From Isoetes taiwanensis (Eukaryota; Streptophyta; Lycopodiopsida; Isoetales; Isoetaceae), in NCBI GenBank assembly GCA_021234155.1, contig JAJEKV010000072.1, positions 2,664,436 through 2,728,435 on the forward strand: DNA of 64,000 bases, given 5' to 3'. A model generated the notes under the pieces. That model was not told the origin of the DNA. It saw only the letters and a program-made list of their open reading frames with translations, and did no database searches. The stretch's first letter is position 1, and each line of letters opens with the position of its first letter. The translations under genes and the position numbers were made by a program. Below are positions 39,644 to 63,616 of this stretch, one piece after another.

Positions 39644-40221
39644 TGTTAGAAATAAGCAGTGAATAGAACCAATATCATGTAACAATGTTAGATTTTCTTG
39701 GATTGATAATCATCTATGTGTAAGAAACACCTCAATCTAATAGCATAAGATGATTTTACATTCAACTCAACAAAAAACCAATTGTATAACACTAGCCAAG
39801 TCACTTCTTCAACTTATCATTAACATTGGCAATTATGACCATTGTAAATAATCTTAGCATTACTGTTCATATGAGATCAATGAGGATACTGTAGCTTCAA
39901 ACTTCAAATAGGTCATTCAATTTCAAATCGATTCATACCTGCTTCACGATTGCTCCTGCTAATTTCCAATGAATGCTCAACCTCTGTATTACATCTTTAT
40001 TTATCTTTGCAGTCCGACGGTCAAGCCAGGCCGCCGATTGGCTCTTCATGTCTTCGTCATCTTGAATCGATTCATTTGAACCTAAATTGGCTCCATTGAC
40101 AAAAGTGCTTTAGGTGCTCAAACTTCTTAGGTGCTTTAGGTGCTTTTAGGTGCTATCTCAACTTTGTCACCGAATTTCCTTGAATATTTTTCCCATCTCA
40201 ATTATGGCATGAATTCTAACA
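39644..40221 (-). repeat. Copia 3' LTR (left copy)
   Basis: 578 bp, TGTTAGAA to TTCTAACA, matching the right copy with few differences. In element orientation it is the 3' LTR. It contains repeated TTAGGTGCTTTAGGTGCT. Its inner edge follows the polypurine tract at 40,222-40,232. Confidence 0.92.
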
Positions 40222-42749: not shown

Positions 42750-44044
42750 GGTTTCACACTCTACTTGGCCGCAAACATTTTGAATGCTTCAAAAGCTTGG
42801 TCTTTTGTTCTCGACAAGAGAGTCTCGCTTTTTCTCACAGAATCATCAACAAATGTTATGAAGTATCTTTTTCCCCTATTATTCCTCACATTCAATGGAC
42901 CACAAAGGTCGGTGTGAATTAAACCAAGAATTTCATTTGCTTTTCCTTTTGCCTTTGAAAAGGGCAACTGAGTGCTTACCCAACATGCAACCCCTGCAAA
43001 CATGATTTTCTATTGCTTTATCAGATGACACCAATAGTCCCTGCTTTATCATAAGTTCAATATTCTTCATATTTGTGTGCCCAAGTCTTTCATGCCACAT
43101 TGCAATATTTGGAGTTGGAGTCAGATTAATACTTTCAACTGATCGAGCATTTATACCAAACAAGTTGCCAACTCTTCTTCCAAGGAATTTTAATTCATTT
43201 CCATCAAAGATTTTACAACGAGTCCTTTCAAAAATGACTTTCAATCCCATATCAACTAATTGAGAAATAGAAATCAAATTTCTCACTAAGCTAGAAACAC
43301 ATAAAACATTTTGTAAGTTCACAATTCTCCCATTCAAATCAAATAGCTCTAGTATGCCAACATCTTCAATTCTTTGGAGGTCACCATTTCCAACTTGTAT
43401 ATGACCACCTTGACTTCCCCTTTTTTCTTTTAGGATTTTTGAACTACATGCAATGGACTTTTCTGCTCCACTATCTAGAATCATAAAATCATCATCATCA
43501 TCAATTCCAGCATTAGTAACAGTAAAAACTTTATGTTTTCTTACCTTATCCTCATCATCTTCTGTAATTTCTTCAAGCATAACTTCTTCTGCTATGTTTG
43601 CTTCTGCATATGAGCTGTTCCTGAATCTTCCTCTACCTCTTCCCCTTATGGCAGAATATCCTCTTGTTCCCCTTTCTTTCCCCTTTGAGAAGTTCTTAGG
43701 TGATGAGCAATTGGATGCATAATGTCCTCTTCCTCCATAATTGTAGCAATTTATTTCTTTAGTCATCATAGGGCAGTCTATTTTCAAGTGACCATATTGA
43801 TTACAGTTAAAACATGGGCCAAACTTACCTCTTTTCTTCTCTTCTTTACCTTTTCCTTTTGCAAATAAAACTTGTGTGGCATCTTCTTCTTCCATTACTT
43901 TGTTCTGCTCTATTTCTATCTTCAACATTCTTTCTGCCTCAATCCTTGTTCTTGCAAGGGTTCTGATAAACATGGCTATATTTCCAAGACTGGTAACAGA
44001 TCTTGAAATGGCCAACACCTGCTGCTGTTGAGAATAACACACTC
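42750..44044 (-). pseudogene. Copia gag C-terminus, protease and integrase N-terminus
   Basis: A 369-codon frame (44,042-42,933) contains the zinc knuckle CFNCNQYGHLKIDC, a second knuckle CYNYGGRGHYASNC in which the second Cys is Tyr, the aspartic protease block FMILDSGAEKSI, and the pre-integrase zinc block with MWHERLGHTNMKN and CRGCMLGKH. The next frame gives LIHTDLCGPLNVRNN and KRYFITFVDDS of the integrase core. Gag upstream continues at 57,421 beyond the gypsy insertion, whose duplicated target CACTC lies at 44,040-44,044. Confidence 0.88.
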
Positions 44045-45706
44045 GTGATCGTTCGGGACGAAGATAGGTCCCATGACGATATCTTTATCGCCGCAAATCA
44101 CGCATACACGCCCACCGACCGACGCACGCTTAACGTGTAGCCAGGTGGGTAGCCCTAGGGGGCAACGTGCCAGGAATATGTGCAACTATTAATGTGCACA
44201 TTTTCCAATGTACACATTAATGTGGGCACACATTTCCATGTGGACACTTGATGCCAAGTGGGCCACACCCATAGGTGCAATTAATGTGCACATTTTCCAA
44301 TGTACACATTAATGTGGGCACACATTTCCATGTGGGCACATTTTGCCACCTAGCCATTAAAGGCAAGTGGGCCCATTTCCAATTATCCCACATGCCTAAA
44401 GGGGATAATTGGAAACCCTAGCCACCCCCTTGTCTATTAAGGGAGGGAAACCCTAACTTGCCCAATTTTCGTTTCTAGGGTTTTGGAACCCTGTTTTGGC
44501 TGCCTCAACAGCCAAAACCGCCTCCCAGACTCTGCCTGAGAGAATTGCACCATTAGTTTCCCTCGATTCGAGCGTTTCAGCAGGATGGTCGAGCTCAGGT
44601 CAGGAGGAGCCACTCAAGGATCAGGTATTTGGCCAATTAGATAGTCTAAACCCTAATTCAGTCATAGAATCAGTAGGTTTAGCCTATTAAATTGCCCATA
44701 GCAGCCTTCTAGATCTTTAGATACCAGCCTCTAACTAAAGAACCTAACTCTATGATGTAGATTAGATATAGTTCTTTAGTTCTTCTGTGATGTATATGGA
44801 TGATGTATCTCTATGAACTCCTTGTATTGGGAAGGGGGGTAGAGACCTAAAGCTTGGTAGTAGATGCTCCTAGAGTAGCCTCTCTAGCACACTATAGATT
44901 CGGCCTGTGTACAAGAACCACACCTGGTTGTGGGTGAAGGGGCCAGACTGGCTAAGAAGGAGGTTCGTGTCCTGACTCTTGAACGATCCCTCTGGTGTGT
45001 AAGGCCTACCAGGGATCATTGTGACTAGGTCTAATGGCTCACCACTGAGTGCGGGTGAGGCATGGACTCGACACCCGTGAAGTGGTGTACACCTTCCAGT
45101 GGGTTCAGTCGAATACGGGCAGTGGCCCTCTAGTCACCTTGAGTCAGCATGTAGATCTCTGGAGGGAGTGATCCCTTCCTGCCCCATCGGAACTGGGAGG
45201 ATGAAACCCAGGAATAGCCCTTTTGGCTATGCATCCGGCGGGCTACAGTCAGGTCCCGACACTTTTCAGCCTACTCTGCAAAGTGTGCACAGGAGGGGCG
45301 GATGGAGTGGACAACCCTATGCCATGTTCATATGCCAGCCAAATCCATTGCCATGAATTCTGTCCGCAAGGAACTCTGGAGACCCAAGCCGTCAGTCATC
45401 CCCATGAGTCTGAGCCTTGGGTAGAACTCCCCATATGTATTGTGCTCACCTTGTTTATGCAGATAGGATGGACCACCCTTCGAGGTGGATATGTGCTTAT
45501 GTTATATACTGACATGTATGTTTACGCTTCCGCAGCTAGGTAGGCCCTGAGGGAGACGGGGTAAAATGACCCCTTCACTCTTCCCACTGGAACCATCCAC
45601 GGTAAAAAATGTTATGTGGAGGGCCCTCAGACGGCATGGAGCTGGTATGGGGATGAACTCCTGTTTGTATACGGTGAGCGCTTGATATGCAGTAGGGGAC
45701 GTCACA
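44045..45706 (+). repeat. Inner gypsy 5' LTR
   Basis: 1662 bp, ending GGGGACGTCACA. It starts GTGATCG, lacking the first T of the expected TGTGACG, and its first 65 bp differ strongly from the right LTR while most of the rest matches well. Inside, ATTAATGTGCACATTTTCCA plus following bases occurs twice (about 44,189 and 44,281). An 85-codon frame at 45,099-45,356 is also open in the other LTR but is probably not a gene. Confidence 0.9.
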
Positions 45707-45707
45707 G

Positions 45708-45719
45708 TGGTATCAGAGT
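45708..45719 (+). other. Inner gypsy primer-binding site
   Basis: TGGTATCAGAGT lies one base after the 5' LTR and matches the complement of the initiator-Met tRNA 3' end at 11 of 12 positions. Confidence 0.9.
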
Positions 45720-45912
45720 AATGTTCTTGGGGACCAAGAGCAAAGCACTGGCCATGTCCCCAGTAGTACTAACCTTGATAGGATCCTTAAACCTCGAAAA
45801 ATGGGAAAAATTTTTCTCATTTTTGTAGTTTATGCTAAGCTAGTAACAGTTAAAATGAATGAAAACATAAAAAGATTAAGAATTGGTGAGCCAACATCCA
45901 AAAAGTAGGGTG

Positions 45913-45979
45913 GTCTCACGTCGCGGGGCCAGACGTAAAATGAGAATTTCATTTTCGGGCTGGGCGCAACGTGTGAGAC
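45913..45979 (+). promoter_or_regulatory. 67-bp hairpin, copy 1 (module A)
   Basis: Begins GTCTCACGTCGCG and ends GGGCGCAACGTGTGAGAC. The 3' half is identical to copies 2 and 3; the 5' arm has diverged, weakening the stem. It lies 201 bp before copy 2. Confidence 0.8.
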
Positions 45980-46113
45980 ATTCAGCTTAAACACACCAAA
46001 AAGTTGTAAATTACAGTAAAATAGCTTGATAATTCTAAATTAGAGCTAAGAATCAGTAGAATTAGCAAGTTACATAATTAAAAAGTAGCAAAATTGATAG
46101 TGGACCCCACCAT

Positions 46114-46180
46114 GTCTCACACGTCGCGCCAGGACAGAAAATGGGCTTTTCATTTTCGGGCTGGGCGCAACGTGTGAGAC
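46114..46180 (+). promoter_or_regulatory. 67-bp hairpin, copy 2 (module A)
   Basis: GTCTCACACGTCGCGCC pairs with GGCGCAACGTGTGAGAC with a single mismatch. The inner GAAAATG and CATTTTC extend the stem, leaving a short loop. It lies 77 bp upstream of the TATA box of ORF-A. Confidence 0.85.
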
Positions 46181-46257
46181 CTTGCTTAGATTAAGGTGTT
46201 TTAGGTGCTCTAGATAACCTAAAAAGGTAGTTTCAAGTTTGACCTAAAAATTGCCCC

Positions 46258-46266
46258 TATAAATAG
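46258..46266 (+). promoter_or_regulatory. TATA box of the histone H3-like ORF
   Basis: TATAAATAG, 111 bp before the ORF-A start codon. The following leader shares ACCCTGC, TTCGCTCTC-like and AAGGCGATCTT blocks with the leader after the second TATA box at 48,217, which supports a duplicated core promoter. Confidence 0.7.
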
Positions 46267-46368
46267 ACCTCGACCCCCCCATTTCGCGTACCCTGCTTAG
46301 AAAATTCGCTCTCTTTGCCAAGGCGATCTTTTTGGCGCCAGTAGTTCGACGGGCGAAATCATTCGAAC

Positions 46369-47625
46369 ATGGCCCGGACGAAACAAACGCTAGAAAGCCT
46401 CGGCCAAGCACATCCTCCGCCCGGTGACCCCGCCCGATTCAAAGGGCACTTCGCGAACGCCTTCTCAATCAGGGGGAATCTTCATCAAGCGAGGGGACAG
46501 ACTCGGACCGGAGCGATCAGACGGAGATCATAGAGGAGGAGCGCCCGGACATCATGCAGCAAATCCTCGAAGAGATCGCCGAGGAGGAAAGGAGAAGCAG
46601 GGAGGAACGGGAGCAGAGGGGACAGCCGACTGTCGAACAACACCGTGCCGGGCTTGGGCCCGTCTGCAAGAGGAGGAGGAGAGACAGGAGCAGCAGCCGC
46701 CAAAGCTTACCCCTGCTGAAGAAGCAGACCTCGCGGCCTTCATCAGTAAGTATGAAGACAAGGAGCGCCGCCGGGAGCAGAGGACGAAGAACCGGGAAGA
46801 CGGTCCAACCATAGCCGGGGCCTTAAGAAGAGGAAGGCCAAGGGCACAAGGCGGGCGGAAGAAAAGTTGTGAAGGTCGGGAAGCGAAGCGGTAGGGCCCG
46901 GCCATCAATCTAACCATCAGGCTAAGAGAGACCCCGCCCTTCGACGACATTCGGACGCAGGATTACGCCCCAACCCGCAGGGGGCGAAGCTCTTCAAAAC
47001 CCCCGCCAGAGAAGGAGGTACCCGAAAGCGTGTGGCGCGCCGATGGGCGCAGCCCGACAGCCGCAGGTTCCCCACCATTCCCCGACGTGGGACAGAGTCA
47101 AAGCCCCGCCGCCGCAACGGAAAGCTTTATGTGATAGACCCCGTGAAAAGGTCTATCGAAGAGGATCAAGGAGCACAACGCTTACATGGCGGCGGGAGGC
47201 CTACAATGCCTATTACCGAGGAGCATGTGGTGAGAACAATCAAAGGCGACATCCGGACAAGAAGCCAAACCTTGAAGCCGCCACAACCCAGGCCCAAGCC
47301 TCCCCGAGCACTAGGGAAGAAGCGAAGCAAGAAGAAGAAGTCGGAGGATAGAGCTCTCAAGGAGATCCGGCACTTCCAGAAGAGTTACGGACTCTTGATC
47401 TCTGGGGCGCCGCTCCAACGCTTTGGTCCGCGGAAGTCATGCAGAGTACAACACGGACATGCGAAAGTAACCGACGAGATGTCATTGCTTGCGCAGGAGG
47501 CGCCGGAGGCAAAAATAGTGCAGCATTTTGAAGATTCGACGGCCTGCACAGTACACGCGAAGAGGGTTACCCTCATGAGGCAGGATATGTATCTTGCCAG
47601 GCACATCAAGGGAGAACGCCCTTGA
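46369..47625 (+). pseudogene. ORF-A: histone H3-like protein with long charged linker
   Basis: ATG 46,369 opens with MARTKQT, identical to histone H3 residues 1-7 counting Met; this frame stops at 46,531. A one-base slip at ACGCTAGAAAG hides an H3-like Ala-Arg-Lys reading. The middle is a charged, probably coiled-coil linker (46,520-46,800, e.g. MQQILEEIAEEERRSREERE), then Pro/Arg-rich and basic (KKRSKKKK). The frame from 47,032 ends in an H3 fold (its residues 107-197): ALKEIRHFQKS (alpha-N), LLAQEAPEAKIVQHFEDS (alpha-2), VHAKRVTLMRQDMYLARHIK (loop 2 to alpha-3) and final GERP. Between PLQR and VTDEM the reading is out of frame, but the +1 frame gives LVRGSHAEYNTDMRK, matching H3 alpha-1/loop 1. 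Canonical H3 is about 136 aa; this spans about 415 codons. If intact it could replace H3 or CENH3 in nucleosomes or steer integration. Decayed here. Confidence 0.88.
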
Positions 47626-47770
47626 GATTTTTGTAAATAACAGAAATTTTTGTTAATATAAAGAATTTTGTGGATAAATAATGTGTCTAATCTAGCTTAA
47701 TTAAGTTAAGATATAGAATTCTAGCTTTTGTTTTGATAAAATTGGAGTTTTTGAGCAAAATTGAGACGAT

Positions 47771-47837
47771 GTCTCACACGTCGCGCCAGGACAGAAAATG
47801 AGATTCTCATTTTCGGGCTGGGCGCAACGTGTGAGAC
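47771..47837 (+). promoter_or_regulatory. 67-bp hairpin, copy 3 (module B)
   Basis: Nearly identical to copy 2, with the best inner stem: AAAATGAGA against TTCTCATTTT. The arms cover about 33 bp each with small bulges. It lies 146 bp after the ORF-A stop and 199 bp before copy 4. Confidence 0.85.
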
Positions 47838-47969
47838 CATGCCCAAAAGTGCCCAAAACTGCTCCAAATCGACCAAATAAGGGGTCAATTCTGCCTAACT
47901 CGACGAGTTTAGTGGAATTACAGCCTTAAATTGCCCAAATTGATTAAGTTTAGCCCATTTAGGACCCAT

Positions 47970-48036
47970 GTCTCACACGTCGCGCCAGGGCAGATAATGA
48001 ACTTCTCAAAATCGGTCTGGGCGCAACGTGTGAGAC
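47970..48036 (+). promoter_or_regulatory. 67-bp hairpin, copy 4 (module B)
   Basis: The outer arms GTCTCACACGTCGCGCC and GGGCGCAACGTGTGAGAC are fully kept, whereas the central 25 bp have changed. Retained arms with a free centre suggest that the arms are the functional part. Confidence 0.82.
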
Positions 48037-48216
48037 CTCGCACCATTTTCTTCACCAAATGACCTCCAGTTTGCTGCAATAGGTTCATTAGTTGTTCTTA
48101 GCATGCTTTAAACCAAAAATCAGCCTTCAAACCCTCAATTGCACCTCCTAATAGGTCAGAATCGCCCAACTCCAGCAAATTCTAGGTCATCCAAAAATTA
48201 GGGTTTTTCCCTTTTC

Positions 48217-48225
48217 TATAAATAG
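48217..48225 (+). promoter_or_regulatory. TATA box of ORF-B
   Basis: TATAAATAG, 122 bp before ATG 48,339 and 180 bp after hairpin copy 4. The downstream leader resembles that of ORF-A, including CTTAGGCGATCTT. Confidence 0.7.
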
Positions 48226-48338
48226 GCCCATCATTTTTCATTTAGCACCCTGCAAGTTTGCTCTCCACTGCTTAGGCGATCTTCCAGCTCCCTGAGGCGC
48301 TTCTGCATCCGTTTGATACTCCTTTCCTTGCTAGATCA

Positions 48339-49865
48339 ATGGCCACTGCTGACTTCAGGCGATGGTACAACGCTAGTGCCCATGCTGCTGAAGCAGATGT
48401 CGATGACATCTTCCGCGTCTTCGGGAAGGAAATTGATATCCAAGCTACGCTGAATGCAACCCCAGCATATAGGCAAGTATTAGCAGAGTTCCAAGCTAGG
48501 GTAGAACCCTCCCTTGTCCGTGTTCCCCCGCGATAGGATACTTTGTTCCCCGCCAATCCTTCAAGCAGCCTTTGGGTGATGTCCCCAACATCGCCAAGTA
48601 CTTAACCAACAAAGCGCCAGAGGGTTACCGACTACATGGTCCTGACAGCTAACAGGACCAAGTACTTCTCCTACACCGCTGCTTTAGCCATTTTCTTATC
48701 CCACCGTGCCGAAAACCCAATGGGGGCAACCTCTATTCCTCCAATGGAGGTGGATCCCATAGCAGTACAGGAAGAAGAGCAGATGTTTTTGCAGTATCAG
48801 CAAGAGCAGGAAGGAGAAGATGATGAAGAAGAGGAGTCCGACGACGATAAGTACACGGAGCTCGACTCAGAGGAGGAACGGCAACAAGCAGAACAGGAGA
48901 TGATGAACTTCGAGCAGAACTGGCAGAACATCAGAGTTGCTCCCCCACTCGGGCTAGGCATCACAAGCCTAGCCCCAATTATCATCAACGGAGAGGAGTA
49001 TTTGCTCCTCAACGACATCCAGAACCTTCCCGAGTGCAGGGAGAGGGAGCTCAGATTGGACGAATTACTCCACCAACTGCGGCAGACCGACATGGACGAC
49101 TTCATCGTCCGGGGAGTCTCAGACTTCCCGCTTCAAGTCAGGGAAGCCGACACCTACACAGGGGAAGCGACTTCCGACATCCAGGCATACAGCAGCATAA
49201 GGCAGGTCATGGAGACCGGAGACCTGCCATCTGAAGAAGAGTTCCTCGCCATTCAGGAACGGATGGGGATCAGAGGCAAGACCACTAGCATCCTGATGCC
49301 GAGTCCCTCAACACCACCCCCAACAAGAGGAGCAGGAATTGACCTCAGGAGAGTCGACTCCACAATTGAAGATTATCGGGAGCTCACAGAGATCGAGGTC
49401 GACGATTATGCAGGGCGGCATAGAGCAGGGGGTCAAACAAGCGGGGAATCATCCGCGACGCACAACGACAGGTCGCTGAGGTACTACCTGCCACTGCTGC
49501 TAGACGGGAGAATAGCGGTGGTACACCGCAAATTCAGCCCCAGGGGCGAGGAAGGAGTGTTCATGCTGATTGCACTCTCAGGCTTCGGCAGGCATGCTCG
49601 AATAGCAGCAAATGTCGACTATGCTGTCCTAGTCAAGAGAGCAATGGCACTCGATCTCTTCGACTTCGCCATACCTCATCGACGGCAGGCGAGATTAGCG
49701 GTGGCCGCGGCCCTCACATCCGACCGCAGAGTGGAGGACTTGACGAGAGCCTTGCAGGGCGGCTCGTCAGCAAGCGTCTTCAGGAACTTGGGTCATACAG
49801 TAGGAACGGCCCAAGTTAAGAAGTTCCTTGAGGACAACCCGTCGTACCGGCAATTTCAAGATTAG
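48339..49865 (+). pseudogene. ORF-B: accessory protein with acidic stretch, frame-broken
   Basis: The frame from ATG 48,339 reads MATADFRRWYNASAHAAEAD and stops at 48,536. A second frame continues with YFVPRQSFKQPLGDVPNIAK, and the main 409-codon frame (48,636-49,865) follows, so one protein of about 500 aa has suffered two slips. Its residues 45-95 are strongly acidic (e.g. EGEDDEEEESDDDK), followed by helix-rich sequence and a conserved-looking C-terminal domain with EGVFMLIALSGFGRHARIA and KKFLEDNPSYRQFQD. I recognise no family. Acidic runs of this kind are typical of histone chaperones, and it sits beside a histone-like ORF with the same promoter module, so a chaperone-like role is an attractive guess only. 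No gag or pol motif is present. Confidence 0.65.
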
Positions 49866-50540
49866 TTAGACTCTTGATCCCGGAGACTTTTTGTACTAAA
49901 ATATTATATAATATATGAATATAATCTCTGTTGCACTTTAAATGTTTTGTTGATGTATTTTTGCCCCACAACTATACCAACAAACATAAACAATGCAAGA
50001 GAACAAGAAAAACTAACCATATAGCCATGAATTACTTGTGTATGCGCTAGAGGCCTAGGCTCGGGGAACGACAACGCCAAGACCTTAGGGAAGAAAGAAC
50101 CGACCAGCACCACCCCCGCAAGGAACCTATTTGAAGATATGGAACCCATGACCCCGTGAGGAGGAGATATCCCGTGATGAGGACGGACCTTGAGAAGATA
50201 AAGGCTCATAGTCGCGACAAGCTGTGAGCTGGTTCGGTGGGCAATGCTCAATTGCCACAAGCATCAGCTCGGAAAACAGGAAGAGACAAGAAGAGGAGCA
50301 AGAGAAGAAGATCCCCCAGCTCGGACTCCTCCGACTCAAGCTCAGAGTCGACCGACCGGAGGAAGAAGAAGATCAGGCCCAGGACCTAACGACGCGAAGG
50401 CAAAGGAACACCAAGAGGGAAGGCAGAGGAACACCCCGTGATGGACGACAAAGAGACACCCGTGGTTTCGATCACCGTAAGAAAGTAGATTCCGCTGGGC
50501 AAATGTATGGAAGGCCCTGAATCGAACAGCTTCGGGGAGA
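49866..50540 (+). other. Spacer and basic, charged region before gag
   Basis: 49,866-50,220 shows no ORF and may hold the ORF-B 3' end. From 50,224 several frames are rich in Arg, Lys, Glu and Gln (e.g. RKRQEEEQEKKIPQL), probably the N-terminal part of gag after frame slips. Confidence 0.4.
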
Positions 50541-51320
50541 ACACGGTGTCGATTAGAAGCAGAGGCATGGCTGGACTAAATGAGTGAGTACGGCAATGCT
50601 TATGGCATGAAGGATAAAGACAAAGGAAGAGTGGCAACAGCCAACTTGAAAGGAGCCGCACGGATTTGGTGGAAGGGTTATGCAAAGGCACATGGCTTAA
50701 GCAGGATGCTTGTAAGTTCGTAAAGTTTGCTAAAGCCTTCAAGCGCCATTACGCCCCGAGGGAACATAAGTCCAAAGATGATGCAAATAGCTTCTACAAG
50801 TTGAAAAGAAAGGCAACAAATCGGTCCAGAATATACAGAGGAATTCATGAGACCGAGGTCAGATGTGCCAAAGTTGGGTGAGAAGCATGCGGTAGAAAGC
50901 TATATTGAGGGGTGAATGAGGAGATCCGCAGTAGTTTTGTGAGGGCAATAAACCCTAAGACAAGATCGTAAGCGTGAGTCCAAGGCTATAAGCTTGCAAG
51001 GGACGGACCTCTAATAGCTGGCAGAGGCAGCAAAGATTTCCGTGACAAAGGCAAGGCGACAGAAGCTATAGCCCTAGGGCAGCCAGTTGTGTCCAAATTT
51101 AGAGCCCCATATGGTGGCAAACTGTGGGAAACAAAGAGGGAGAAGAAAGTGTGTCCTTCAAGGACAAGCAGAGGGGTCAAACTACTCCAAAGCAAAGGCG
51201 ATCCGCTTTGCAAAAGCGATGCCCAAGGAAAAAGAGACAGGAGTGCATAGAAAAGCAGCCTTTTGCTTCGTGTGCTTCCAGCCAAAGCTATAGAACAAAT
51301 GAACCCGCCTTTACGCCATG
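50541..51320 (+). pseudogene. Inner gypsy gag, decayed
   Basis: One frame near 50,595-50,680 reads KDKGRVATANLKGAARIWWK, the capsid block of plant gypsy Gag, and another (50,666-50,881) gives VKFAKAFKRHYAPREHKSK. Near 51,260-51,310 FCFVC and, in another frame, HEC may be the remains of a zinc knuckle. It would form virus-like particles; frame slips prevent that here. Confidence 0.65.
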
Positions 51321-51479
51321 AGTGCAGCTTAGCGGAGTTGGGAGATTGGGACATCCCGGCCCGGACGACGACGGGGCGAGGAAGGCCGCTGACTACATTG
51401 TGGTGAGGTCATATCTTTGCCGCAATAGATACAGAGCAAAAGCAGAGAGCCAAGATAAAGTAATCTCCACAAGAGGGAA

Positions 51480-51835
51480 GGCCAAGGCCAAGTCCTTCAT
51501 AGTCTTGATAGACTCCTGAAGTAGCCATAACTTTGCATCCCCGTAATGGTTCAAATGTTGAAGTTGAAACCGCTAAAGTCAAGCCAAGGCCCGTTGTCTT
51601 AGCAAGTGGTGCAAAGAAGGCGCACGGCGTGCAAGAGAATTAACTTCGACATCGACTTGCCGTGGATTAATATTTAGATGGGGGCAGAAGTAATGGGCAT
51701 TGGCAAGTACGACTTGATCATAGGAATGGAGTACCTTGGACCAGCAGGGCCATTATCGATTGTGGAAAGTTTTAAGGTGACCTTCCCAACACCCGACGGC
51801 AAGATCATCGAGATCACTGTGTAAAGAAGTTGTTC
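51480..51835 (+). pseudogene. Inner gypsy aspartic protease, decayed
   Basis: At 51,490-51,520 the frame reads FIVLIDS, then TGA, then SSHNFA: the catalytic DSG triplet has a stop in place of Gly, one substitution from GGA. Further on, YDLIIGMEYL and VTFPTPDGKIIEIT match the downstream protease fold. Confidence 0.7.
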
Positions 51836-52001
51836 CCATCATGCGCTGCATGACTTCTAAGCGGCCGCTCAAGTGCATCAAGATTTAACAGTGGCATACA
51901 TCTTCAAGCTTGAGATTGACGAGCCTGAAACAGAGGAAAGCAAAGAAGATTGTGGTGCTCGCAAGTTGCCGGGCAAATAGCTCACCTGATCACGGAGTTC
52001 C

Positions 52002-53565
52002 ATGATCTCTTTCCGTGACGAGATCAAGATCAAGCTTCCGCCTTATAGGGGAGTCGAGTGTGAGATAGCACTCGAACCGGGAGCAAAGCCGGCAAGCAAG
52101 GCTCCATACAGAATGACGACGCAGGAGTTGACGGAGCTAAAGAAGCAATTGCAGGAGTTGCTCGACCTAGGCTTCATTAGACCTAGTGTCTCGCCATTTG
52201 GAGCGCCCATTCTCTTTGTAAAGAAGAAGGATGGCAGTTTAAGGATGTGCATAGACTATAGGCAGTTGAACAAGCATACCATTAAGAACAAATATGCGCT
52301 CCCCAGATCAGATGACTTGATGGATCAACTCCAAGGTGCAAGGGTCTTCTCCAAAATCGACTTAAGGTCAGGTTATCATCAGATCAGGATAAAGGAAGAA
52401 GATATCCATAAGACCGCCTTCTAACGGTATGGGCATTATGAGTTCACGGTAATGCCTTTCGGCTTATCGGTCGCCCCCGCGACGTTCATGAGGCTCATGA
52501 ACGACATCTTCAGGGAGTTTTTAGACACCTTTGTGATTGTATTCTTTGATGACATTCTCGGTGTATAGCAGATCCCTTTGAAGAGCACGCATAACACTTA
52601 AGGAGAGTGCTAGAGAAGTTGAAGAGGCACCGTTGTACGCCAAGTTGTCGGCGTCACTTCAAGAATCCGAGAAGGTGGAATACCTTGGTCATGTGATCTC
52701 GCCAGAAGGAATCTCGACGGATCCCCGCCAAGATTGAAGCCGCCATTCGCTGGGTCGGCGCCAAAAGAATGTGCATGAAGTCAGAAGTTTTCGGCTTAGC
52801 AGGGTAGTACCACAGAAGTTCGTGGGAAGAACTTCGCTAAGATAGCGCCCCGCTAACGCATTTGACGAGGGCGGAGAAAGTGAAAGATTGGGCAGAGCAT
52901 TGGCACAAGAAAGCCCAAGCAGGGTTTGAATTATTGAAGGAAGCTTTAACAACCGCCCCAGTCTTAACCCTGCCGGACCCAGAGAAAGACAAGCTTGTAG
53001 CGACAGACGCAAGTAAGATAGCTACAGTGCAAAGGTTTCATGCAAGAAGAGCGCGGTGGTAGCGTGATGATTCCGTGAAGATGAACGACGCCGAAACGCG
53101 CTACCCCACCCACGATCAGGAATTGCTTGCGGTTGTCATGGCATTAAGAATTTGGAGGCACTATCTTTTGGGAAGGAAGTTCCAGTTGGATACAGACCAT
53201 CGAGCCTCCAAGATATATTCACGCGAACCACACCTCAACCCGAGGCGAGAAGGTGGATGGAGTTCCTTGAAGAGTATGACTTTGTTATAGTCTACAAGCC
53301 GTGGAAGCTCAATGTGGTAGCGGATGCTTTCAAGGCATCCCCGACACCTAGAGTGCATTGCAATGCAATTTCGACGCCTCCAAATGACTTTGGTAAGAAG
53401 GTTGAAGAGTCCTTGCCAACGGATGTGGATTTCAAGGAAGTATGGGCAAGCTCTCTAAGGAGGCTAGAACAGATAAGGAGCGGGAAGCCTTTAAACATTA
53501 TAAGAAGGAAGGCAACCCGTTATACCATAAGAACAAGTTGTAGCGCACCGAATCATCGTGTGTAA
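52002..53565 (+). pseudogene. Inner gypsy reverse transcriptase and RNase H, decayed
   Basis: RT blocks: [54 protein letters not shown] (52,160-52,400), then after a [23 protein letters not shown] and [11 protein letters not shown] (about 52,535, the active site, FFDD where YxDD is usual). RNase H blocks: EAETRYPTHDQELLAVV-like at 53,080-53,130 and WRHYLLGRKFQLDTD (53,155-53,200), then VYKPWKLNVVADAF. At least six frame breaks. The old gypsy at 37.8 kb has equivalent blocks. Confidence 0.88.
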
Positions 53566-53569
53566 GGAA

Positions 53570-54940
53570 ATTGATCCTCCATGACACGCGACAACAGCCC
53601 AATAGCTGGCCATGCGGGATTCATGAAAACATATTTCAAAAGCAGCAGCCTATTATTGGCCAGGAATGAAGAAGCAAGTAGCTCGCTACATCAAGGAATG
53701 CCAGCTATGTCGCCAGACAAAGGCGAATGAACAGCGGAATTCCGTGGGCCTTAGAGCCATTAGCTGTGCCAAACGCTAAGTGGGAGGTGATCAGCATGGA
53801 TTTCATCATGTGACTCCCAAGGACCATAAGAGGGAAAGATGCTTTGATGGTAGTAGTTCCATAAGTTGTCGAAAATGGCACATTTTGTGCCTTGCGTGAC
53901 CACGATACGGGTTATGGATACAAATAAGCTCTTCACCAAAGAGATCTTCGTGCTTCATGGCATGCCAAGGGAGATTATTCCCGACATGGGGATCCGGTTC
54001 ATGAGCCTTTTGGCAAGACCTCTTTGCGTAACCATTCAGACAAAGCTATCCATGAGCACGCATATCATCCTCGACGGATGGCCAAACGGAGCGGACCAAC
54101 AGATTTTAGAAGACATGCTACTAAACTATGTCCGAATAAGCAAGGTATGTGGGAAGAATTTATTCACTTGGTGGAGTTTGCATACAATAGCACCAAGCAG
54201 AATCATCCCAAATGTCGCCATTTATGATCAATTACGGCTATCGGTGTCTAACTCCGCACACTTGGCACAACCCCCGTCAAAAGTGGAAGTTTCAAGTAGC
54301 AGATGTTGGCCGATATGCAGCAGCTTTTGTGGAAGAAGTTCGAGGGTATTTGCTAGCAGCAAGAAGTCGATTGTAAGAGCATCGGCCGACAAGCATCGAA
54401 CAAAGAAGAGAGTTCAAAGTTGGAGATGATGTTTGGCTCAAGATCAAGGTGAAGCAGCGAAGCTCGGAATCGGAATTGCAAGAAGCTTGCTCCAAGGTGG
54501 GTCGGACCTTCAGAATAGTCAAGAGAGTAGGTAATCAATCCTACAAGCTAGACTTGCCAAAGACACCTAAAGATTCATAAGGTCTTCCACGTGAGTTTGT
54601 TGAAGAAGCACACTCCAAATCCGCATTTAAGTCTTTGGACTCTCCAACGTTGTTGGAAATGACGGAGGAGCAACCTGGAAATAGTTCCGAATTGATTCTT
54701 GATAAAGCTTTCAAGAAAACGAGGAGATCAGTAATTCCTCCAAGATTTGGTCAAGTGGAAACACTTACGCTGGAAGACGACATACGGGTACTTAAGAAAG
54801 ATTTAGTGAAGCAAAGTACCCACAGCTTTATAGAGCAATGGGACGGCAAGGTCATCTTCAAGAAATCGCCCGTGCATGTTGATTTGTGTAGATTAATTCT
54901 ATGTATAGTTAAGATTAATTCACGATGCAACCTATGCTAG
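53570..54940 (+). pseudogene. Inner gypsy integrase and C-terminal region, decayed
   Basis: Frames contain CQLCRQTKANE-like zinc-domain remains (53,700), LSKMAHFVPC and KEIFVLHGMPREIIPD (53,860-53,985, catalytic core), WEEFIHLVEFAYNSTKQNHP (54,150-54,210) and VGDDVWLKIKVKQRSS (54,425-54,470, C-terminal domain). The tail near 54,650 includes SPTLLEMTEEQPGN, nearly the same as SPTLSQMTEEQ in the old gypsy at 58,610. No chromodomain is evident. It would insert the element DNA into chromosomes; the broken frame rules that out here. Confidence 0.85.
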
Positions 54941-55740
54941 GTATGGGTCGATGCGCTAGATCGATGATGAGACCACTACGGTGATCTCTAGGGCGTGGTG
55001 TAATGTCAATGTAGGCATGACCGCATTTCCGCTTGGGCGAGTGGAAGGTAGACTAGAAAGTCTACTTCTGTCCCACGGAAGTAGACGACCTCGAGAGAAA
55101 GGAGGTCATGAAGGAATGCACTGGTAGGAAAAGCACCTCTAGCCCCATATATGCTTTGATAGGAGGAATCAGGCCTTCACGCCCCATATACGGGAAGGAC
55201 CTATCCTCCACGCTGGACAACTAGGGTGTAGGCATGAGCGGCATATAGGCATATAGGCGCTGTCTCCTCGGCCATAATGGAAGATTCACCCTCTTCCTAC
55301 GCTGGGAGATTAGCCATGCATCCATGTAGATAGGTGGGTTGGTCACCATATAACCAAAATTTTATTAATAATTAAAATGGTACTAACGTAGTGTCGACCT
55401 GCAGGCCAATAGAGCGCTCCGGAGGGCAAGAAGGTCGAGCTACGAAGACTTGCAACACAAATTTTGTTGGAATGTGTTGCAAGGAATGAAGAGTACCTCG
55501 GACGTTAATTTTAATTTGATAAACTTAATTGTCATGTTAAGTGAATTATTGCATGATGTTATGAATTGATAAGTTATTTCATAATATAACGGCGTGATAA
55601 TGTCCTAAAAATATTACCTTAAGGTAATCTTAATAAATGTGTAAGTATTATAGTAGTTATAGTATGCATCAGGTTGATTGCAGGTTAAGATGATCCCAAG
55701 GTGGGGAGACCCACGATGCTGCGGACAGCATCATTTCAAG
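54941..55740 (+). other. Inner gypsy 3' untranslated region
   Basis: No ORF. It contains alternative small hairpins: GTCTACTTC with GAAGTAGAC near 55,056-55,084, and GTAGACT with AGTCTAC just before, sharing the same segment. Motifs ATAGGCATATAGGC are repeated near 55,240. It ends in the polypurine tract. Confidence 0.6.
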
Positions 55741-55750
55741 GTGGGGAGAA
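55741..55750 (+). other. Inner gypsy polypurine tract
   Basis: AAGGTGGGGAGAA ends exactly at the TG of the 3' LTR. A near copy, CCCAAGGTGGGGAGACC, lies about 50 bp earlier (55,697) and may be a second tract. Confidence 0.85.
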
Positions 55751-57415
55751 TGTGACGTTACAGGACAGTATACGGTCCCAGGACGTATACTGTACTGCCT
55801 CGTCACGCGTACACGCCACTCCGACTGACGTGCACGCTAACGTGTAGCCAGGTGGGTAGCCCTAGGGGGCAACGTGCCAGGAATATGTGCAACTATTAAT
55901 GTGCACATTTTCCAATATACACATTAATGTGGGCACACATTTCCATGTGGACACTTGATGCCAAGTGGGCCACACCCATAGGTGCAATTAATGTGCACAT
56001 TTTCCAATGTACACATTAATGTGGGCACACATTTCCATGTGGGCACATTTTGCCACCTAGCCATTAAAGGCAAGTGGGCCCATTTCCAATTATCCCACAT
56101 GCCTAAAGGGGATAATTGGAAACCCTAGCCACCCCCTTGTCTATTAAGGGAGGGAAACCCTAACTTGCCCAATTTTCATTTCTAGGGTTTTGAACCCTCG
56201 CTTTGGCTGCCTCAACACCAAAACCGCCCCCGCATCGCCCGAGAGAATTGCACCATTAGTTTCCCCGATTCGAAAAGCTTCCAGCCAGGATGGTCGAGCT
56301 CAGTCGAGGAGCCACTCAAGGATCAGGTATTTGGTTAATTAGATAGTCTAAACCCTAATTCAGTCCATAGAATCAAAGAGGTTTAGCCTATTAAATTGCC
56401 CATAGCAGCCTTCTAGATCTTTAGATACCAGCCTCTAACTAAAGAACCTAACTCTATGATGTAGATTAGATATAGTTCTTTAGTTCTTCTGTGATGTATA
56501 TGGATGATGTATCTCTATGAACTCCTTGTATTGGGAAGGGGGTAGAGACCTAAAGCTTGGTAGTAGATGCTCATAGAGTAGCCTCTCTAGCACACTATAG
56601 ATTCGCCTGTGGTACAAGAACCACACCTGGTTGTGGGTGAAGGGGCCAGACTGGCTAAGAAGGAGGTTCGTGTCCTGACTCTTGAACGATCCCTCTGGTG
56701 TGTAAGGCCTATCAGGGATCATTGTGACTAGGTCTAATGGCTCACCACCGAAAAGTGCGGGTGAGGCATGGACTGACACCGAAGCGGAAGTGGTGTACAC
56801 CTTCCAGTGGGTTTAGAATCACGGGCAAAGTGGCCCTCTAGTCACCTTGAGTCAAGATGTAGATCTCTGGAGGGAGTGATCCCTTCCTGCCCCATCGGAA
56901 CTGGGAGGATGAAACCCAGGAATAGCCCTTTTGGCTATGCATCCGGCGGGCTACAGTCAGGTCCCGACACTTTTCAGCCTACTCGCAAAGTGTGCAATGT
57001 GAGGGGCGGATGGAGTGGACAACCCTATGCCATGTTCATATGCCACCCAAATCCATTGCCATGAATTTCGTCCCCAAGGAACGAACTCGAGACCCAAGCC
57101 GCCGGGCCATCCCCATGAGTCTGAGCCTTGGGTAGAACTCCCCATATGTATTGTGCTCACCTTGTTTATGCAGATAGGATGGACCACCCTTCGAGGTGGA
57201 TATGTGCTTATGTTATATACTGACATGTATGTTTACGCTTCCGCAGCTAGGTAGGCCCTGAGGGAGACGGGGTAAAATGACCCCTTCACTCTTCCCACTG
57301 GAACCAGTCACGGTTGCAGTGTTATGTGGAGGGCCCTGTATCGGCATGGAGCTGGTATGGGGGATGAACTCCTGTTATACGGTGAGTGCGCCGTATACGA
57401 GTAGGGGACGTCACA
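55751..57415 (+). repeat. Inner gypsy 3' LTR
   Basis: 1665 bp, TGTGACG to CGTCACA. It matches the 5' LTR over most of its length, with many one- to four-base indels and a divergent first 80 bp. TATACGGTCCCAGGACGTATA near its start is a strong inverted repeat, and GTATAC motifs recur near its end. Confidence 0.92.
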
Positions 57416-57420
57416 CACTC

Positions 57421-57904
57421 CTGCTCCCTCTAAGTCAGCAATGATATTGTCAAAGGTTTGAAAAAACTCATTGACATTGTCTTTATCATGAAACCTTAGC
57501 CTTCTCATTTCATTTTCAAGCACATCGATTTGTGAGGAGGTTTTCTCCTCATAATTAAGGAGCATATAACTCCACATCTCGCTAGGATGCAATCCTCTTA
57601 TAATTAATGAGTTTACCTTACTCATTATAATCCCTTGAGCCTCTCTTAGTTTTGCCACATCTACTGTGCCTCCTCCTTTTGTTGCTTTGGTGCTAGCTTC
57701 TGCCTCAGCTCCTTTTACTGAGCTCGAGCTTCCTTCAGCAGCAACCTCAGAGAATCTGCTCTTAGGTTCAACAATATCCCATAGCCCTTCTACTTGCAAT
57801 ACATGCTTGATCTTTTCTTTCCAAACTTGGAATCCTGAATCCCCCTTGAAGACATCAATGGCACTCAACAGGCCTGCACCAAATCTGCTTGCCATTTGTC
57901 TCAA
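57421..57904 (-). pseudogene. Copia gag, 5' part
   Basis: Minus frame starting MRQMASRFGAGLLSAIDVFK includes YQVWKEKIKHVL-like text, IIMSKVNSLIIRGLHPSEMW and RRLRFHDKDNVNEFFQTFDN, the standard copia gag capsid. It is interrupted after DLEGAGV by the gypsy element and resumes at 44,044. Confidence 0.88.
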
Positions 57905-57921: not shown

Positions 57922-58495
57922 TGTTAGAAATAAGCAGTGAATAGAACCAATATCATGTAACAATGTTAGATTTTCTTGGATTGATAATCATCTATGTGTA
58001 AGAAACACCTCAATCTAATAGCATAAGATGATTTTACATTCAACTCAACAAAAAACCAATTGTATAACACTAGCCAAGTCACTTCTTCAACTTATCATTA
58101 ACATTGGCAATTATGACCATTGGAAATAATCTTAGCATTACTGTTCATATGAGATCGATGAGGATACTGTAACTTCAAACTTCAAATAGGTCATTCAATT
58201 TCAAATCGATTCATACCTGCTTCACGATTGCTCCTGCTAATTTCCAATGAATGCTCAACCTCTGTATTACATCTTTATTTATCTTTGCAGTCCGACGGTC
58301 AAGCCAGACCGCCGATTGGCTCTTCATGTCTTCGTCATACTGAATCGATTCATTTGAACCGAAATTGGCTCCATTGACAGGTGCTTTAGGTGCTCAAACT
58401 TCTTAGGTGCTTTAGGTGCTTTAGGTGCTATCTCAACTTTGTCACCGAATTTCCTTGAATATTTTCCCATCTCAATTATGGCATGAATTCTAACA
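57922..58495 (-). repeat. Copia 5' LTR (right copy)
   Basis: 574 bp, same ends and sequence as the left LTR apart from a few substitutions and short indels in the TTAGGTGCT repeats and poly-A/T runs. Followed by the target duplicate CTTTT. Confidence 0.92.
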
Positions 58496-59240: not shown

Positions 59241-59369
59241 CCGATGACGAAAAAATGAAAAGATGCTGAATAAATAGGGAGTCCGAAAAAGGGGCGCCCC
59301 CATCCAATACGTTATAGATTTCAAATAATTTGCTGAGTCTTCTAATCTCATACTATTCTCTAATAACTA

Positions 59370-59548
59370 ATGTCATCGATCCGCGTAGCGGATCGAGATT
59401 CTTGCGCAAGACGAGCATGCAATGCGTCGCATGCATGCATCGCATGCATTTTTAGGCCGTTCATCAGGTTGGGGGATCACTATTTATTGCAGAGTTCTTC
59501 ATCGACTTTTCATCAGCGCTTTCTCATCTCTCAGCAGTATCCATGGCT
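59370..59548. repeat. Direct repeat D, copy 1, with palindrome
   Basis: Starts ATGTCATCGATCC and ends CAGTATCCATGGCT; about 95 percent like copy 2 by eye. TCGATCCGC and GCGGATCGA (59,376-59,396) form a perfect 9-bp stem with loop GTA. Next comes an alternating purine/pyrimidine stretch of GCATGC and ATGCAT words, favourable to Z-DNA. Confidence 0.8.
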
Positions 59549-59750
59549 TCTATTCTTTGATCTCATGCGGAGGAGGGGCTTCTTCTTGCATGAGCTACTC
59601 TTTCTTGACCATTCCTATCCTTTCTAACCTTGTCTATCTTTGCCTTTTTGTCCGGCATAGGACAATTCTTCAACTTTTCTCCTCGGATCTAGTATTTGAT
59701 GTTCTATGGTATCGGGATGTTGTTGTTTTCATGCGAGTCACAGAGCAAGA

Positions 59751-59924
59751 ATGTCATCGATCCGCGTAGCGGATCGAGGTTCTTGCGCAAGACGAGCATG
59801 CATGCATTGCATGCGTCGCATGCATTTTTAGGTCGTTCATCAGGTTGGGGGATCGCTATTTATTGCAGAGTTCTTCATCGACTTTTCATCAGCGCTTTCT
59901 CATCTTTCAGCAGTATCCATGGCT
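59751..59924. repeat. Direct repeat D, copy 2
   Basis: Same structure as copy 1, with the palindrome at 59,757-59,777 and a reshuffled GCATGC stretch. It lies directly after the 35-bp motif at 59,719-59,753. Confidence 0.8.
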
Positions 59925-62482: not shown

Positions 62483-63616
62483 TCATCTGCAAAATGGCTA
62501 TCGCTCCCGGGGGGAGGGAGGGGAGGGAGGGAGAGAATCTTCATTTAGCTATGGAGAGGGGGATTCTTGGTATGTGCATTGCATACATCTTGCATTTTGA
62601 GACTGCAATCATTAGATCTCAACTTTTCTTGCGAGGCTTGGAGTTAGGCTATGCATCAATGTTTTATTCCTGCTCCTCAGATGTTTGAAGCTCTCTGTGA
62701 CAAAAAAATGATCAGAGGTCTTCAAGAAGTTCTCTCATTTCTATGCTAATAAAACATGTATTTCCATTCTCTGCTCTATTAGACTTGTCCTTATGCTTCT
62801 GCAATATTTCTTCCATGCCGAGCACTAAAGATTTCTTCAGGCCAATTCCCATAAAGTCATGGTATCAAGTATTCTATTGTCTTGAAGTAGCAATTTGAAT
62901 TGATTGTCAAAACAGGACTTTGAACTATGATTTAAGCCACTTCACCCTCCGGCCATGGAGGGCAACCCTCCATGCGCAGCACCTTGTTTATTTTCCAGGC
63001 ACCACAACCATCTAACTCTGGCCATTTCCTTTCTTGTTTTTCCTTTTTCGATTTTATTTGCCAGACACGTCATTGGATGATTCTTTTGTGTCTCTAGGTA
63101 TGATTATGCTTCTAGATATGATGTTAAGTAGAAGTTTCTACAAATAAGGAATTTGGCTATTGCTCTAATGCCCATCTCGCGGTTTCATTTATGCTTCCCA
63201 CTTGAATTCAATCTTGTTTTCTTATAAGCATCAACCAGATGATCCTATGCTTCTCTAATATCAAGTTAGGTCCTTCAAAACTGCTTCTTGTTGTTACTGA
63301 CCATTACGCTCGGATGTCTTTATATCAAATGTGCTCAAAGAGCCTTAGAAGGTCCATGCACATTATCCTCTATGTGCATATCCTCATCTACATTTTCTTT
63401 TATGGAAAGCTCCTTGTAATAAAGAAAAATAGAATTATGGCATAACACAAAGACAAGGCATATTCACTGTAATGCTAGCAGCCTCAAAATGCAAAATGTA
63501 TGCAATGCACATACCAAGAATCCCCCTCTCCATAGCTAAATGAAGATATCTCTCTCCCCCCCCCCCCCTCCCCAAAAAAAAAAAAAAAGGGAGCGATAGC
63601 CATTTTGCAGACGATG
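62483..63616. mobile_element. 1.1-kb inverted-repeat (foldback) element
   Basis: Left arm 62,483-62,609 and right arm 63,473-63,616 are inverted copies, sharing CTGCAAAATGGCTATCGCTC, ATCTTCATTTAGCTATGGAG and GTATGTGCATTGCATACAT. Both contain a purine tract that has diverged (GGGAGG units on the left, G-run plus A-run in complement on the right). The interior (about 860 bp) has no transposase and includes a perfect 9-bp stem CATGGAGGG/CCCTCCATG at 62,954-62,974. Fits a non-autonomous foldback element, or two copies of one repeat in inverted orientation. Confidence 0.6.

Follow-up and report, generated by a model that had tools for sequence, protein, structure and literature searches.

The chromovirus (Ty3/gypsy) lineage described here in Isoetes taiwanensis carries two accessory ORFs (ORF1 and ORF2) before gag-pol, and ORF1 is a histone H3-domain fusion of about 410–460 aa across the copies. 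Its anatomy and the selection acting on it are best explained by an element-encoded nucleosomal H3 variant that would alter chromatin marking or silencing, a reading to which we assign a probability of about 0.5. One copy lies in the window, the whole stretch of 64,000 nucleotides that was analysed; this copy is a decayed member of the high-copy lineage, and its features are collected in Table 1.

Table 1. Features of the H3-bearing element in the window
Feature	Position	Strand	Evidence
Target site duplication CACTC, 5' copy	44040..44044	.	flank comparison
5' LTR	44045..45706	+	BLASTN between LTR regions
Primer binding site (PBS) GTGGTATCAGAGT, presumably initiator Met tRNA type	45707..45719	+	
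Two hairpin-forming 67-nt palindromes before ORF1	45913-45979, 46114-46180	+	z -4.9 and -8.5, respectively
TATAAATA, predicted internal promoter, 111 nt 5' of ORF1 ATG	46258..46265	+	
ORF1, H3-like fusion (MARTKQT, variable charged region, H3 fold), frames broken	46369..47625	+	
Histone H3 fold inside ORF1	47275..47610	+	Pfam PF00125, residues 82-193 of frame from 47032
Second pair of 67-nt hairpin palindromes, before ORF2	47771-47837, 47970-48036	+	z -8.4 and -8.5, respectively
TATAAATA, 122 nt 5' of ORF2 ATG	48217..48224	+	
ORF2, protein without Pfam match; ATG frame breaks, then open 48606-49862	48339..49862	+	
Decayed gag-pol	50200..54940	+	RT at 51990-52421, PF00078 E 1.2e-11
Polypurine tract (label from position and letters)	55743..55751	+	
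3' LTR	about 55752..57415	+	BLASTN between LTR regions
Target site duplication CACTC, 3' copy	57416..57420	.	flank comparison

The window element has the LTRs, the target duplication and the Met-type PBS of a Ty3/gypsy retrotransposon, the PBS sequence GTGGTATCAGAGT being one that we take to correspond to the initiator Met tRNA. It is a bounded element, as the earlier note claimed, with a pair of LTRs, CACTC at both ends and a restorable empty site. The two LTRs are 93% identical by BLASTN over 1693 columns, with 54 mismatches and 43 gap openings; a number of gap openings so near that of the mismatches suggests that part of the indels could be assembly errors. The accessible part of the genome paper (PMC8566536) describes the I. 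taiwanensis assembly as built with Nanopore long reads. Owing to these possible assembly indels, frame breaks and frameshift counts of single copies may be unreliable. Joining the flanks of the element restores a 410-aa copia frame in the window; hence, the H3-bearing element lies within a Ty1/copia-like one. The host copia-like element occupies 42933–44042 and 57308–57904 of the window on the minus strand, and short repeats at 40000–40193 and 58278–58468, which flank both sides, may be parts of its LTRs. A host H3 gene adjoining an element is ruled out, since ORF1 sits within the LTR-bounded insertion.

The ORF1 frame at 46369 opens with MARTKQT, and the frame at 47032–47625 matches the Pfam Histone profile at E 3.5e-14 and, among PDB entries, histone H3.1 best (E 3.9e-16), so that both the H3-type start and the H3 fold claimed in the earlier note are recovered. 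The histone fold exceeds the curated Pfam cut-off (H3-type), and NCBIfam profiles give only weak matches, all within the fold. In the window ORF1, each of the three frames is interrupted, and the one that starts with MARTKQT runs for 54 codons before a stop. The position first given for the ORF, between the PBS and gag, is right in that it lies inside the element after the PBS, but the next ORF is ORF2, not gag. Chance similarity to H3 is ruled out by the Pfam and PDB matches together with the many genomic copies.

The genome searched contains 1,658,258,908 bases in 1110 contigs. With the Pfam Histone profile, the best 150 of 8705 candidates were scored: 15 places, at 164–165 bits, are host-H3-like, and the other 135 lie at 144–155 bits, with open frames up to 494 aa. 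With the window ORF1 protein, the best 150 of 9183 candidates were scored, and these 150 places have zero overlap with the 135 from the profile search. The ORF1s fetched, 20 from each list, are all of the element type (40/40). The full H3 tail exists at 16 places only, all above 108 bits, the next match reaching 53 bits. At the DNA level, the window ORF1 yields 40 places including itself (the best 40 of 1883 candidates), and 27 of the 39 others among the matches listed align unbroken over positions 1–1257 at 76–90% identity. In the family as a whole, the ORF occupies the same place in many copies and is often open; such recurrence and constant placement rule out a one-off insertion of H3 into a single element.

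Two architectures of ORF1 exist, termed group A, to which the window copy belongs and whose matches spread over many contigs among those listed, and group B. The group A sample comprises 20 loci picked for open frames; the group B sample comprises 20 loci picked for open frames and score, plus L054. In group A, the open frame begins with MARTKQT in 14/20 loci and with MARTKQTARKP in 12/20, and about 320–370 variable residues (321–367 in 16 measured copies) separate the MARTKQT start from the H3 core. The tail keeps ARTKQTARK, usually followed by P, and thereby the K4 and K9 positions, and the remainder of the H3 tail is absent. Group B contains three subgroups, whose ORF1s start mostly with MPRFKL (B1), MEEVKQ-like (B2) and MANTKS-like (B3) sequences, and do not open with an H3 tail. 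All three have a common N-terminal domain, tail-like pieces, such as STGGK and RKPHRYRPGT in B1, and a nearly canonical H3 core. Some B2 and B3 fusions possess an internal RKSG motif before the H3 core (ARKSGSQYK in L025, PRKSGAQYK in L018), close to the ARKS of H3; hence, it is uncertain whether a K9-like site has been lost from group B. A canonical H3 N-terminal tail is found in neither group, and ORF1 may work like H3 but is not canonical H3. The fetched ORF1s match Pfam Histone at 1e-26 to 1e-27 in group A and at 1e-41 to 1e-43 in group B. Compared by hhalign, the H3 parts of the two groups align at E 9e-28, and the N-terminal parts have no detectable relation (E 0.18); Pfam finds nothing significant in the N-terminal domains of either group outside the histone fold.

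ORF2 encodes about 450–500 aa between the H3 ORF and gag in both groups, as in the window, L016:4075-5520 and L054:2066-3397. Against Pfam it gives nothing significant (best line E 0.076), and the AlphaFold model of the window ORF2 is unusable, with a mean pLDDT of 35. The ORF2s of groups A and B are remotely related (23% identity, E 6e-7), and the capsid regions of the two groups are 56–59% identical. Downstream of the group B H3, ORF2 or capsid is present in 20/20 loci (ORF2 in 19, capsid in 17; L012 without ORF2). The group B locus L012 contains capsid, protease, RT, RNase H, integrase, SH3 and Chromo domains by Pfam; the group A locus L050 contains the same set minus RNase H, with Chromo at E 1.8e-10, and a chromodomain is also detected in L049. 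In the window copy, RT is the sole gag-pol domain detected, neither the pieces at 50618–50878 and 54581–54937 nor the chromodomain region giving a Pfam match. Upstream of ORF1, the PBS TGGTATCAGAG is present in 12/20 group B loci. With gag, protease, RT, RNase H and integrase in order and a terminal chromodomain in relatives of the window copy, groups A and B are classed as chromoviruses by the features tested. A collection of viral contigs contains no relatives for two queries.

The spacing of the H3 domain to ORF2 and to the capsid is constant. Among 99 ORF2 places, at least 35 are preceded by a listed H3, at a distance of 251–363 nt in 34 cases and 759 nt in one, and a listed group A H3 lies 2.7–3.4 kb before at least 26 of the 150 capsid places, compared with 0 (ORF2) and 1 (capsid) in the opposite-strand control. 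A second sample disregards H3 and takes 10 loci at even steps from the best 150 capsid matches, which share 93–100% identity with one H3-bearing element's capsid and are hence close relatives. In relatives, capsid homology begins about 2.9 kb past the H3 match. In this second sample, an H3 domain is located near the expected site in 8/10 loci, clearly in seven (one with a stop, one with a deletion) and badly decayed in one; the other two have no H3 match in a 701-nt stretch.

The ORF1–ORF2 cassette and the gag-pol backbone apparently have separate histories. In seven group B loci with alignable capsids (L011, L012, L013, L019, L020, L024 and L025; five B1, one B2 and one B3), capsid pS averages 0.54 for comparisons across subgroups and 0.57 among B1 loci, and the H3 pS is 0.84 and 0.49, respectively. 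Such differing synonymous divergence of the H3 core and the capsid points to distinct histories between subgroups and to modular exchange. Compared with the L012 capsid, those of L023, L024 and L025, from other subgroups, are 92–96% identical, and those of L018, L021, L022 and L026 are 49–71% identical; between B1 and the other subgroups, ORF1 is 42–45% and ORF2 35–50% identical. Recombination thus appears to have moved the cassette between gag-pol backbones, at least between some of them.

Upstream of the accessory ORFs, possible expression signals are repeated. The octamer TATAAATA is situated 108–113 nt 5' of the ORF1 ATG in 19/19 group A loci with enough flank (1/20 is too short), and 50 such octamers exist overall in 296,607 nt, the ORF1-upstream ones included. 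The exact octamer is not seen at the corresponding place in group B loci. Internal promoters upstream of ORF1 and ORF2 are predicted from this pattern. The hairpin pair before ORF2 is found also in L049, L050 and L052, and Rfam at gathering scores finds no match in the window at 44000–57500. In L051 (C1038:7676100-7684300), a second palindrome set and ORF1- and ORF2-like fragments follow the first, which suggests a tandem or nested copy.

The H3 core is under much tighter constraint than the rest of ORF1. In copies selected because their frames are open, a choice that reduces dN, the pooled Nei–Gojobori dN/dS of the H3 core is 0.038 in group A (16 copies), 0.037 in B1 (12), 0.023 in B2 (5) and 0.029 in B3 (3), and that of the N-terminal part is 0.184, 0.145, 0.151 and 0.106, respectively; 4/20 group A loci and 1/21 group B loci are left out. 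The capsid-sampled copies give a core dN/dS of 0.084 from 6/10 copies, with 4/15 pairs saturated at synonymous sites, after exclusion of the two lacking a match, the badly decayed copy and the copy that bears the deletion. With dS 0.018, the closest pair of these reaches a ratio of 1.37, which is what neutral decay following insertion would produce, and the other defined pairs have 0.04–0.16. For gag-protease, L012 and L025 give 0.097. Purifying selection on ORF1 during element replication is the simplest reading of these ratios. The proposal that an H3-like protein is carried as Ty3/gypsy cargo is accordingly borne out by the Pfam match, by the same site in many members, often with an open frame, and by purifying selection.

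Simultaneously, twelve residues (R69, R72, R83, C110, H113, R116, V117, T118, M120, D123, L126 and I130) are invariant in 17/17 group A and 19/19 group B copies, three of 20 and two of 21 copies, respectively, being left out of the comparison. R69, R72, R83, R116, V117, T118 and M120 presumably contact DNA, and we take C110, H113, D123, L126 and I130 to form the H3–H3' interface. Positions that are invariant within a group are equal to host H3 at 60/61 in group B and 43/71 in group A; group A diverges from H3 near loop 1 and the start of α2, and group B is variable at 64 and 87. The constraint on the DNA-facing and H3–H3' residues fits a protein that would work inside nucleosomes.

Strong constraint on these residues, combined with a departing tail, leads us to infer an H3 variant that alters the marking or silencing of element chromatin. 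The chromovirus lineage would encode its own H3 variant before gag, composed of an element-specific N-terminal domain and an H3 fold, and the ORF1 protein, probably made from its own promoter, would pair with host H4 and enter nucleosomes. The altered tail and the large extension would then change the marking of element-rich chromatin; as a result, silencing of the element would weaken, or its insertion or chromatin state would be steered. Marking chromatin, biasing integration and interfering with silencing are all compatible with the evidence from the sequences. Counting against this explanation are the nucleosome residues lost by group A (R63P, K79N, F84V, K122Q in 16/17 copies, and R129H), its limited agreement with host H3 (52/89 core residues), the internal RKSG motif of some B2 and B3 copies, the origin of the lowest dN/dS values in copies selected for open frame or high score, the H3-less 2/10 and one badly decayed locus of the capsid sample, N-terminal domains and an ORF2 without known match, and modest clustering in group A with none in group B.

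A rather unlikely alternative is a tether or import adaptor, in which the N-terminal domain would bind Gag, integrase or cDNA and the H3 fold would serve for nuclear entry with histone chaperones and importins, or for docking on chromatin during integration, leaving the marks unaltered. The large element-specific domain joined to the H3 fold, the chromodomain of the integrase and the tighter constraint on the H3 core than on the N-terminal part agree with such a role, and so does the clustering of group A. On 32 contigs of known length, with the best-match lists, 7/79 group A H3 places (1.8 expected, p 0.019) and 8/78 group A capsids (1.7 expected, p 0.006) have a neighbour within 100 kb; this clustering is modest and, with no other transposon as a control, may be ordinary. 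However, clustering is absent from group B H3 (0/73; 1.5 expected), and the invariant R69, R72, R83 and R116 would not be expected to be needed for chaperone binding alone. In the same test, ORF2 places have no neighbour within 100 kb either (0/51; 0.8 expected).

The source of the H3 domain bears on a further possibility, compatible with the other explanations, that CENH3, and not canonical H3, gave rise to group A and that its product works at, or is directed to, centromeric chromatin; we consider this improbable. In a 21-row tree, group A forms a clade (100/100) on a long branch (0.61) and is placed on the same side as two plant CENH3 rows (93/86), and group B forms a clade (90/83) beside canonical H3. 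Group A and Arabidopsis CENH3 also have KEIRHFQK, LLIP and RVTLM in common. However, the longer loop 1 of the CENH3 type is absent in the alignment against plant CENH3, the matches lie on many contigs, and, in the PDB, an intact group A core finds its top match in histone H3.3, which leads H3.1 by just 0.5 bits. Furthermore, a single clade of A and B is not rejected (p-AU 0.085), and the long branch itself weakens the placement. By identity, group A is about equally close to host H3 (52/89 core residues; 52/99 in the tree alignment) and Arabidopsis CENH3 (50/99), and the group B core is identical to host H3 at up to 88/99 positions; a host CENH3 was not found in the genome search. The differing N-terminal domains of A and B suggest two captures of H3, though a single capture with domain replacement may explain them instead.

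Less probable still is a histone decoy, in which ORF1 would sequester H4 or H3 chaperones (ASF1, CAF-1 or HIRA type) before nucleosome assembly and so disturb silencing-competent chromatin; the strong selection on the H3 core and the divergence of group A around loop 1 and the start of α2 would suit it, but the conserved DNA-contact residues argue against it. That the captured H3 gene is passive cargo of no benefit to the element is very improbable, since, despite the broken frames of the window copy and others, selection and fixed placement hold in two diverged groups, and the near-neutral ratio is confined to the closest capsid-sampled pair, distant pairs being well below it. For an element-encoded nucleosomal H3, a fuller scenario can be put forward tentatively: H3 was perhaps captured twice, element-owned nucleosomes made from internal promoters would package or mark element chromatin, the ORF1–ORF2 cassette would be exchanged in an arms race with silencing, and the product may be read by the chromodomain integrase of the element itself.

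Compared with plant chromoviruses, as set out in the accessible parts of PMC6317226 and PMC3350952, the quillwort elements possess the same Gag capsid, protease, RT, RNase H, integrase and chromodomain, LTRs and a Met-type PBS, but also have two additional ORFs ahead of gag, of which one contains an H3 fold; in the same parts of these papers, histones are mentioned only as chromodomain targets or chromatin marks. Ogre, Tat and Athila of the OTA clade also have extra ORFs and large non-coding regions, but they are non-chromoviruses, and the accessible description (PMC6317226) gives them no H3 domain. Other LTR elements with captured ORFs reach thousands of copies in some cases, but their captured ORFs are situated downstream of pol in the accessible part of PMC6431247. 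The word 'histone' is absent from PMC8566536, PMC10541799 and PMC6431247. Host histone H3 shares the fold, equal loop lengths and key contacts with ORF1, whereas the element protein has a replaced tail and more than 300 extra residues and sits inside transposons. Core histones are also encoded by viral genomes: Marseilleviridae and Medusavirus encode histones, and the bracovirus H4 has an extended, and thus altered, tail. Unlike these, the present case concerns a plant LTR retrotransposon with H3 only, fused to a domain of 320–370 aa and present in many copies.

In titles and abstract openings among the matches listed, with subscription papers and preprints outside the scope, there is no H3-coding LTR retrotransposon, and an H3 cargo in a chromovirus is new here as far as the searched literature shows. 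Plants silence transposons mainly by methylating H3 tails and DNA. An element-supplied H3, with a rebuilt tail and a largely constant nucleosome-facing core, would meet silencing at its substrate, and the question of whether transposons edit their own nucleosomes becomes directly testable. The ORF1s also provide naturally occurring H3 variants whose N-terminal extensions are very large, and, if expressed, such element H3s could also have shaped Isoetes chromatin.

In addition, the window contains two further repeat structures beyond the element. One is a 78-nt inverted repeat (95%) at 62537–62614 and 63470–63547, which extends over about 1 kb. The other is a direct repeat at 59348–59548 and 59729–59924, about 195 nt in length, with a short palindrome inside.
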